Shown one piece after another: positions 2,828 through 33,880 of a stretch of DNA of 33,880 nt (the first letter of the stretch is position 1; every line of letters begins with the position of its first letter). Location: positions 1-33,880 of the forward strand of contig NZ_JAEELZ010000002.1 in the NCBI RefSeq assembly GCF_016282985.1. The letters are read 5' to 3'. This stretch comes from Methanosphaera sp. GTDB taxonomy: Archaea > Methanobacteriota > Methanobacteria > Methanobacteriales > Methanobacteriaceae. The translations under genes and the position numbers were made by a program. The notes below the pieces were generated by a model, which was given only the letters and a program-made list of their open reading frames with translations, was not told the DNA's origin and did no database searches.

Positions 2828-3340
2828 TCACCTGATATATCTTACAGTTTCTGATGATTTTGCATTTGGATCAACTAATCCAATAAGTCTAGAATCAATT
2901 TTTTCTTCGAATCCTTCTCCATATTTCATGAAATCTGAAACAGAAGTTTGATTCTTAGTGAATACTCCAACTTTGATATCATAACCAAAGCTTAATGTAT
3001 CATTCAATATTTGATCCACTTGTTCTACAAAATCTTCGAGATTGTCTAATTGGACTGTTAAAATTATTTCTCCAACAGATACACGTAGTGGAACATCATT
3101 TCCCTTTACATTAATAGTTTTTCTATCCGTGTGGTTAACAGGTAACCCTTTTGCAGGACCAAAATTAACCATCGTTGGTAATGATTCACCATTTATTAAT
3201 ACTCTTAATACTCCATCCAAAACCAATACTTGATTCAATATTGTTTCAGTTGTACTAGGTTTTAAAATTCTGTATGGGAAAATTTTTACATCGGTTGCTT
3301 TTATAATATTTTCATTTTGTCCTTCTACTTCTGTTGACAT
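2828..3340 (-). CDS. mrtD: Methyl-coenzyme M reductase operon protein D
   Basis: A 170-residue McrD-family protein, encoded between the beta and gamma genes as in other mrt and mcr operons. It is not part of the mature enzyme. The family is thought to act in assembly, F430 handling or activation of the reductase. Recognisable features are the DVKIFPYRILKP start, the TETILNQVLVLDGV segment and FGPAKGLPVNHTDRK. It sits 17 bases after mrtB and 6 before mrtG, clearly in one transcript. The precise molecular role is unsettled for the whole family. Confidence 0.88.
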   Translation of the reverse strand: MSTEVEGQNENIIKATDVKIFPYRILKPSTTETILNQVLVLDGVLRVLINGESLPTMVNFGPAKGLPVNHTDRKTINVKGNDVPLRVSVGEIILTVQLDNLEDFVEQVDQILNDTLSFGYDIKVGVFTKNQTSVSDFMKYGEGFEEKIDSRLIGLVDPNAKSSETVRYIR

Positions 3341-3357
3341 GATTTAACATCCTATAA

Positions 3358-6438: not shown

Positions 6439-7872
6439 TTAGATTTTTTTTACTAAGTTACCCATGTGATCATATACTTCTACAGTAGATAATCTCATTT
6501 GGGTATCTAATTGGTGAGTTGCACATGAAAGACATGGGTCGTATGCACGGATAACCATTTCCATTAAGTTGAAGATTTTGTCGTCAACTTCTACACCAGG
6601 TTTGATGTATGTGTTTGCAACTTGTTGAATACCCATTTCCATAGCTGGGTTGTTTTGTACTGTAGCTACAATAATGTTTGCTTCAGTTACTAAACCGTTT
6701 TCATCAGTTTTGTAGTGGTGAGTTAAAGTTCCTCTTGATGCTTCAACAATACCTACACCTTCACCGGTGATTTGGCTTCTGTCGATAGCTCCAGGACGTT
6801 TTTCTCCACTTAAGTCTCCTTCAAGACCGTCAACTGCTAATTCTGCTGCTGCAACTAATTCGATAAGTCTTGCTGGGTGGAATAATAATGTTTCTTGTGG
6901 ACATTGACCGAATGTTGCTCTGAAATCATTTAATAATTCTTGAGCTTTTGGTGCTGCATCAGGCATTTTTTTACATGCGTTTAATCTGGATAATGGTGCT
7001 ACTCTGTATACACCTTCAGGATATCCGATGTCTTTGATGTAAGGGAATTTTAACCAGGAGTATGGTTTTACACCTTCAGCCATGTAGTCTGTGTAATCTT
7101 GTGGTGCAAATTCAGCATATTCTTTACCTTCTTTGTCAACCATTCTTACATTACCGTTGTACATATCCCAACTACCATCTTGTTTATCTACTAAACCACA
7201 GTGGTAGGTGCTTACGTAACCTAATGTTTTGATTAAGTCTAAGTTTTCTTCAAAGATAGGTTGTGCTGCTTCCCAGGTGTCCATGGAAAGTTCTAAACAT
7301 CTTTTTGCTTTTTCTAAGTCTTCAGCTTGTACTTCATCACTTAATTCAGTGGTGATTCCACCAGGAGTGTTTGATACTTGGTGAATTGGTCTTCCACCGA
7401 TTGTTGTGATGATATCTTGTGCGTGTCTTCTTAATTCTAATGCTTTTCCTGCTAATTCAGGGTAATCTTTAATGATTTGGAAGACGTTTCTGGTTTTTCT
7501 ATCTTTTCCACCGATAAAGTCAGGTGCACTTAAGAAGTAGAAACTTAATGTGTGAGAGTGGATAACTGAAGCCCAGTTCATGATTTCTCTCATTTTGTAT
7601 GCGGTTGGAAGTATTTCATCATCGTTGTAACCGAATACTTGGTCACATGCTTTAGCTGCAGCTAAGTGGTGTTGTACATCACAAATACCACAGATTCTAG
7701 GTACGATTCTTGGTACTTCTTCAATTGGTCTTCCTTGTAAGAATTTTTCAAATCCTCTGAATTCCATTACGTGTAATTTAGTATCTTTTACGTTTCCTTC
7801 TTCGTCGAGGTCTACAGTAATTTTTGCGTGACCTTCAATTCTTGTTACAGGTTCTAATGTTAATTCTACCAT
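6439..7872 (-). CDS. mvhA: F420-non-reducing hydrogenase, large subunit
   Basis: The 477-residue Ni-Fe active-site subunit of the soluble Mvh hydrogenase, which oxidises H2 and passes electrons through MvhG and MvhD to heterodisulfide reductase for flavin-based bifurcation. The four nickel-binding cysteines are present: RICGICD (residues 61 and 64) near the start and DPCLSCATH (447 and 450) near the end. A 24-residue tail follows the histidine. In many Ni-Fe hydrogenases the maturation protease cuts at this point. The gene is last in mvhDGA and is followed by a hairpin terminator. The mvhB polyferredoxin gene that normally follows is not here. Confidence 0.93.
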
Positions 7873-33561: not shown

Positions 33562-33880
33562 TCTCCATATCTTTTCCTCTTTTTTTAAACATTTTAAAAA
33601 TATGGCTCTGTAGAAAACCTTGCTTTGAGGGAAATATGAGTAATAACCCAAATATAGTTTTATTACAGAGGGAAATATTTTATTTCAATATTTTCCTTTC
33701 TTCATCATAATACAATTCTCACTCATATTGAGTAATTGTATTTTTCATTTGATTCCTGCCTAATTGCCGCTAATGCTAAGCATAGTAAGTGGTACAGGCG
33801 ATCTCCGGGAAACCCTCGGTTCACATATAAAATACTTTGTTTATATAATTATATTTTTTTTAATCCTTCTCGTTGTATGT
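33562..33880. other. Non-coding terminal region with many inverted repeats
   Basis: 319 bases after mmp7 with no gene. It opens with a T-rich tract that probably ends the mmp7 transcript (about 33575-33587). From 33604 on it differs from ordinary spacers in holding closely packed repeats: CTCTGTA at 33606-33612 inverted as TACAGAG at 33664-33670, GAGGGAAATAT twice directly (33627-33637 and 33668-33678), and at least four hairpins. GGCTCTGTAGAAAACC at 33604 also looks like the terminal repeat of an insertion sequence. The window ends before the next gene. Confidence 0.55.
33711..33824. ncRNA. Possible structured RNA or IS200/IS605-type right end
   Basis: Hairpin 1 at 33711-33740 is TACAATT and ACTCA paired with TGAGT and AATTGTA, with a 3-base bulge and a 3-base loop. 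Hairpin 2 at 33758-33799 closes with GCCT/AGGC, continues with TGCC/GGTA, and contains ATGCT/AGCAT at its tip. Hairpin 3 at 33805-33819 is CCGGG against CCC and CGG with a bulge. It is followed by TTCAC. A hairpin and GGTTCAC at the edge is typical of right ends of IS200/IS605 elements, whose ends also encode guide-type RNA, but no tnpA or tnpB gene is visible. Confidence 0.3.

Follow-up and report, generated by a model that had tools for sequence, protein, structure and literature searches.

The right end of a tnpB element at the edge of the contig

The DNA analysed here (the window, 33,880 nucleotides) is the entire contig C48 of a genome assembled in 151 contigs. The genome belongs to Methanosphaera, a methane-making gut archaeon. 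Rfam gave no match in the window at gathering thresholds, and neither a tRNA nor a tmRNA was found in it. As a preliminary description had claimed, hairpins are packed into positions 33711-33824, and the final stem is followed by TTCAC. On the plus strand, this stretch folds at -31.8 kcal/mol, compared to a mean of -20.9 for shuffled sequences (z -3.26), and one of 200 shuffles folds as well; the fold of the minus strand is unremarkable (z -0.57). The G+C content is indeed raised (0.412 versus 0.320 for the whole window), but this is a weak signal on its own, as 9% of 114-base windows are equally GC-rich. The G+C content of the 83-base core (33742-33824) is 0.470, which falls in the top 1.5%.

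The hairpins do not stand alone but belong to a larger repeat that runs from an inverted repeat at 33604 off the end of the contig, and the gene adjoining it in the window encodes methanogenesis marker 7. The earlier statement that no transposase gene is in view was nearly right, except that the last codons of tnpB lie at the very end of the window. A tnpB-like gene just beyond position 33880, which had been named as a check, is present according to complete copies in related genomes. The features are listed below (TIR, terminal inverted repeat; TSD, target site duplication).

33584..33603, minus strand: predicted guide-coding stretch (TSD plus flank), read ATATTTTTAAAATGTTTAAA, placed from the position of the TAM
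33596..33603, no strand: 8-bp TSD, AAAAATAT on the plus strand and ATATTTTT in RNA orientation, the same at contig C86
33604..33619, no strand: right-end TIR, GGCTCTGTAGAAAACC on the plus strand, pairing with left-end GGCYCTGTAGAAATC in complete copies
33604..33880, minus strand: right-end part of the TIR-bounded tnpB element, its boundary at 33604 common to the copies on C132, C92, C13 and C56
33604..33826, minus strand: predicted scaffold of the omegaRNA, 3' of tnpB and reaching as far as the inverted repeat; diverged copies align with it throughout
33663..33671, minus strand: internal CCTCTGTAA, which can pair with TACAGAG at the element end; matching double change in L050
33671..33696, minus strand: hairpin 3, GGAAAATATT..AATATTTCC, a predicted fold (arm-swap test not significant)
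33710..33741, minus strand: hairpin 2, conserved AATATGAG loop and covarying stem (arm-swap test)
33742..33824, minus strand: most conserved part of the predicted omegaRNA (core), GTGAACCG...GCCTG...CAGGAATCAAATG, with 96% identity in the C57 element, which is diverged elsewhere
33849..33880, minus strand: 3' end of tnpB by translation (its final nine codons, IQREGLKKI, with the stop); full-length tnpB of L063 has this C-terminus as well

Architecture, copies and insertion sites

Further copies, which the preliminary description had asked to be sought, were found in the same genome. Contigs C132, C92, C13 and C56 terminate in near-identical right ends, which is why the assembly stops at the end of the window; a short diverged copy lies inside C57, and another diverged one on C94. 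Many right ends are 96-99% identical with one another. Complete copies were found in the best-assembled relatives, G008 and G010. They start with the left repeat GGCYCTGTAGAAATC... and end with the right repeat ...GGTTTTCTACAGAGCC, they are flanked by exact 8-bp TSDs, and tnpB follows the right end on the opposite (minus) strand. The simplest copies are about 1503-1511 bp long, with tnpB as their sole gene. Indeed, tnpB fills most of the 1503-bp copies (155-1264 in L077), and the Y1 (HUH) transposase TnpA is absent from them; the ORF list of L076 shows no gene inside the element beyond tnpB except overlapping antisense frames.

The ends of the element, inverted repeats (GGCTCTGTAGAAA) with 8-bp target duplications, are shared with an autonomous-looking 1203-bp insertion sequence in G003 and G010 that encodes an IS5-like DDE transposase, which scores 107.6 bits against the NCBIfam IS5 model, below the cut-off of 140. 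Most tnpB copies have tnpB in the place of the DDE gene, which was not found in the tnpB-only copies. The idea of a transposon right end at which a guide-type RNA (omegaRNA) is expected is upheld. As complete copies carry tnpB, a solo end is not what the family at large consists of, and an IS200/IS605-like end is contradicted by the TIRs and 8-bp TSDs. We consider it probable that the element consists of tnpB and its omegaRNA between the TIRs of an IS5-like DDE insertion sequence.

The DDE gene is present in some composites. Three TSD-bounded units combine it with tnpB and the omegaRNA region: in L074 the DDE reading frame is intact (325 aa) and tnpB is truncated, in L095 the DDE gene is split in two, and in L100 tnpB is intact and the DDE gene decayed. 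L095 (4204-5625) and L100 (3418-4866), which come from different genomes, also contain a further transposase-like reading frame of 473-482 aa with weak ISH6/IS66/ISL3 matches. In L069 (211-1632, G010), the left end is separated from tnpB by a transposase of the IS4 family (138 bits in NCBIfam, above cut-off), and inserts of about the same size occupy this place in L070 and L073.

As the window holds only the last codons of tnpB, the protein was characterized in full-length copies of relatives. These contain the Pfam domains HTH_OrfB_IS605, OrfB_IS605 and Cas12f1-like_TNB. One full-length relative reached 303 bits against NCBIfam guided_TnpB (cut-off 100), and ISDra2 TnpB structures matched it at E 2.6e-70. 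In the best ISDra2 alignment, the three RuvC-like acidic motifs (D-E-D) and the zinc ribbon of TnpB are present and aligned. Several copies have an intact tnpB of 369-370 aa, others a broken one (L065, L068), and the sole DDE copy found in the window's own genome has stops.

Searches in plasmid (near) and phage (distant) collections gave no match to the element. A pattern match on a Clostridia contig (L057) looks like chance, as tblastn found no tnpB there and only other reading frames were present. When TIRs and TSDs were searched around the tnpB genes of relatives (30 loci), convincing pairs were obtained in L143 and L147 (GGCTC family) and a weaker pair with another TIR in L148. At the remaining loci the best matches were AT-rich or short and were not accepted; L144-L146 and L172 are family members with no accepted TIR and TSD pair. 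Several smaller or altered forms were seen. L025 (2907-3323, G000:C57, 417 bp) and L106 (1610-1984, 375 bp) have the right-end RNA sequence and a TTTWWT flank, and no tnpB; they may be RNA-only copies that are served in trans, or products of internal deletion. L058 (~6883-6952) and L097 (~3273-3341) contain mini-elements, about 70 bp long, that comprise only the last right-end hairpin, from GGCTCTGTAAAAAA to the inverted repeat. In L121 (947-2527, G007:C147), tnpB is broken and a different inverted repeat (GACTCTTTAAAAAATTGGG) is flanked by an 8-bp TSD.

The remainder of the window's element lies beyond the contig end, and its other end is on contig C86, as identified by the matching TSD and the empty site. 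The partner search covered the left-end halves at other contig ends of the window's genome. The 8 bp outside the window's TIR (ATATTTTT, RNA direction) recur beside a left-end repeat at G000:C86 13254 (L179), where the first 185 codons of tnpB are open up to the contig end; the middle of this tnpB is missing from the assembly. When the flanks from the window and C86 were joined, six of 14 orthologous loci (L198, L199, L200, L201, L204, L205) aligned in one piece across the junction, and at the other eight the two sides of the junction aligned separately. Two further pairs of halves in this genome were matched by their target duplications (C132 with C129, C92 with C8). The empty site for L064, in G009, has 97% identity and contains no element. 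The empty-site search for L069 found nothing, and the site of L068 in G009 was too different to serve for comparison.

The predicted RNA and the motif beside the insertions

The right end can be aligned across strongly diverged copies, starting close to the stop of tnpB and reaching the inverted repeat. Its core has the layout GAACC-hairpin-GGRGAT-GCYTG...CARGAA, which, as judged by eye, follows the 3' ends of canonical tnpB relatives, so the proposal of a new RNA family stands only in part: the RNA is not wholly new in kind. At one canonical locus, L149 (G013:C93), tnpB is followed by its 3' RNA region and a tandem second copy of the start of that region.

RNAalifold found next to no consensus structure (-2.24 kcal/mol) in 22 right ends aligned with MAFFT, a result that we think is due to misaligned hairpins of variable length. 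It was replaced by an arm-swap permutation test, which supports hairpin 2 only. In this hairpin, the loop is kept and both arms change; arms from the same copy pair at -5.6 kcal/mol on average and swapped arms at -2.5, and none of 20000 permutations reached the observed value. The result holds without a near-duplicate. The compensatory changes that had been named as a test are present in the stem of hairpin 2. The arm-swap test did not support hairpin 3 (p 0.34), and the terminal stem between internal CTCTGTA and TACAGAG at the element end is not established (p 0.07). In one copy, L050/L121, which has a different inverted repeat, the internal segment and the repeat show a matching double change (CTCTTTA/TAAAGAG). 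A loop-to-3' pseudoknot (TATGAGT/ACTCATA) is perfect in the window and received no support from the permutations (6224/20000).

The RNA most likely comes from the minus strand, opposite to the strand that was first folded. The window copy alone folds better on the plus strand (z -2.9 to -3.3). Over the core of 16 homologues, however, the minus strand averages -17.2 and the plus strand -15.6, with the minus strand better in 11 of the 16, and across the set the arms of hairpin 2 show slightly stronger pairing on the minus strand. The orientation of tnpB and the flank motif also point to a minus-strand RNA. TTCAC, previously taken for the 3' end of the RNA, would then be on its 5' side, and the RNA would extend to 33604. 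By position and by the covariation of hairpin 2, a predicted structured RNA lies 3' of tnpB on the same strand, as in TnpB/omegaRNA systems.

In RNA orientation, the left flanks show a motif, TTTWWT, that directly abuts the target duplication. We counted 31 distinct left flanks, 17 from complete high-quality copies and 14 from left halves. The six positions read T (30), T (31), T (31), A/T, A/T and T (30); there is no comparable constraint at position -7 or within the target duplication, whose sequence is variable. All 17 complete high-quality copies have TTT at -6 to -4, as do 30 of the 31 tnpB-side flanks overall; on the right side of these complete tnpB copies, the mirror position has it in 4 of 17. 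DDE-only copies had TTT in 1 of 9 left flanks and 3 of 9 right mirror positions. Fisher tests on these contrasts gave 6e-8 and 5e-6. The nine controls come mostly from one other genome, whose transposase shares 76-79% identity with those of G008/G010; a different transposase preference could conceivably lie behind the contrast.

Six rows had been set aside before this count. Five of them have an imperfect TSD or TIR (L107, two of L111, L113, L121) and contain TTT in 2 of 5 cases; the sixth, L132, has TTT and is doubtful in its element identity. With all six included, TTT occurs in 33 of 37, and ATTATT accounts for three of the four exceptions (L107, L121, L196). The left halves L129-L131, which were counted, have a DDE-type left end, and L130 alone is tied to a tnpB-type right end (L191, by its TSD).

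Pairwise comparison of canonical TnpB relatives from the same archaeal family (20 loci) showed that multi-copy groups start with TTTAT/TTTAA and end with GTTCAA, with unrelated flanks directly beyond. On this ground, TTTWWT would be the kind of TAM used by this branch of TnpB. The simplest reading of the sequences is that TTTWWT acts as the TAM of TnpB, that the duplicated site and its flank provide the guide, and that TnpB determines which DDE-made insertions survive.

Proposed retention by TnpB, rival readings and known systems

The most parsimonious account has an IS605-type element as the source of tnpB and its omegaRNA, which then came to lie between the inverted repeats of an IS5-like DDE element. 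Both genes occur together in a few units; most tnpB copies have no DDE gene and are probably mobilised in trans. The omegaRNA, transcribed from the minus strand, would run from 33826 to 33604, take in the inverted repeat and end at the transposon end, and its guide would be taken from the duplicated target site and the flank just outside the element. TnpB may then recognise TTTWWT together with a match to the guide. An empty site would read TTTWWT-guide and could be cut, whereas an occupied site would be split, with the TAM beside only 8 matching bases. By cutting chromosome copies that lack the insertion, TnpB would let repair from the occupied copy restore the element, and insertions without a TAM at the right place and in the right orientation would be lost. 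That a guide from the right flank directs cleavage is suggested by this geometry. Taken as a whole, an explanation that combines a tnpB element with IS5-like TIRs, a minus-strand omegaRNA, an external guide and TnpB-driven retention appears likely to us.

The one-sided TTTWWT might instead be a target preference of the DDE transposase, acting in an asymmetric transpososome, with TnpB and its RNA as passengers that have no effect on insertion sites. All copies look DDE-moved by their TIRs and TSDs, and the DDE-only controls are few and mostly from another genome. We nevertheless consider this unlikely, because DDE-only copies with the same TIR, including L094 of G010, lack the motif, because it matches the TTTAT/TTTAA of canonical TnpB relatives with other types of ends, and because the composites L095 and L100, with a DDE-type left end, have it as well. 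TnpB-omegaRNA bound at TTTWWT could also steer the DDE transposase to insert next to it in one orientation. Such steering, which would make this a minimal TnpB-plus-DDE system of targeted transposition and a conceptual forerunner of CRISPR-associated transposons, would fit insertions that are fixed in orientation and register, but geometry alone gives both under the retention model, and we regard steering as quite improbable.

The copies are decidedly unlikely to be degraded, inactive remnants. Some tnpB genes are broken and the only DDE copy of the genome has stops, but intact tnpB genes, the high identity among right ends, exact TSDs and several copies in the same genome argue against mere decay. 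It is very improbable that the guide is internal and fixed just after the core (~33742), as an IS605-type relic, with mere filler up to the inverted repeat: the core with CAGGAATC does resemble canonical relatives and is the most conserved part, yet 33604-33741 keeps a covarying hairpin and motifs across diverged copies, and TTTWWT lies directly beside the TSD, the position that an external guide would require. It is likewise very improbable that a plus-strand RNA, such as an attenuator or an antisense RNA over the 3' end of tnpB, is the functional structure; the better plus-strand fold of the window copy speaks for it, and the homologue set, the arms of hairpin 2 and the lack of an Rfam match speak against it.

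Retention by cutting of empty copies is a known model for the TnpB of IS605. Under the retention reading preferred here, it would apply to a carrier with no demonstrated TAM preference. Transposase and TnpB share their recognition motif in IS200/IS605 elements, so that natural insertions cannot tell which of them shapes the sites. On the apparent DDE carrier, tnpB-free copies show no consistent motif and tnpB copies nearly always show a one-sided one. Compared with IS200/IS605 and IS1341-type TnpB-omegaRNA systems, the Methanosphaera element is alike in its TnpB family, in the predicted structured RNA 3' of tnpB, in a left-flank TAM, here TTTWWT, that resembles the TTTAT/TTTAA of canonical Methanobacteriaceae relatives and, by inference, in a guide from the right flank. 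It differs in that IS200/IS605 elements have neither TIRs nor target duplications, whereas this element has TIRs and an 8-bp TSD and its 1503-bp copies contain no Y1 transposase. The RNA core is about 140 nt away from the end of the element, a distance that includes the inverted repeat, and the TSD separates the TAM from the element. With IS5-family DDE insertion sequences it shares the TIR and 8-bp TSD of the 1203-bp IS5-like element, but most copies carry tnpB instead of the DDE gene.

Type V-K CRISPR-associated transposons combine a TnpB-derived effector with a DDE transposon and insert in a fixed orientation to a PAM-like motif. The pairing of a TnpB-type effector with a DDE transposon and the fixed orientation to a motif are alike here; unlike in Type V-K, neither a CRISPR array nor TnsB, TnsC or TniQ genes were seen in complete copies, and this TnpB keeps its catalytic motifs. 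In the portions of the open-licence literature available to us, we recognised no report of a prokaryotic TnpB carried by a DDE transposon, which does not prove that there is none; a study of TnpB elements of six bacteria treats IS605/IS607-type elements (PMC9956272). Two papers on Fanzor1 of eukaryotes and their viruses describe it in TIR/TSD transposons, some of them IS4-type with 8-bp duplications (PMC3627910), and assign both TIR and TSD to the RNA scaffold (PMC10711439). The likeness lies in a TnpB-like nuclease on a TIR/TSD transposon with the TIR within the RNA scaffold (PMC10711439, PMC3627910). In contrast, the present element is archaeal and carries TnpB proper, the variable TSD, which the motif abuts, appears to be guide rather than scaffold, and the TAM lies outside the TSD. 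The RNA-guided cutter TnpB appears to have exchanged its usual type of carrier for an ordinary cut-and-paste transposon, and on this it still seems to decide which insertions persist. If true, this would be natural evidence that TnpB itself makes that decision, and an archaeal parallel to Fanzors living on TIR transposons.
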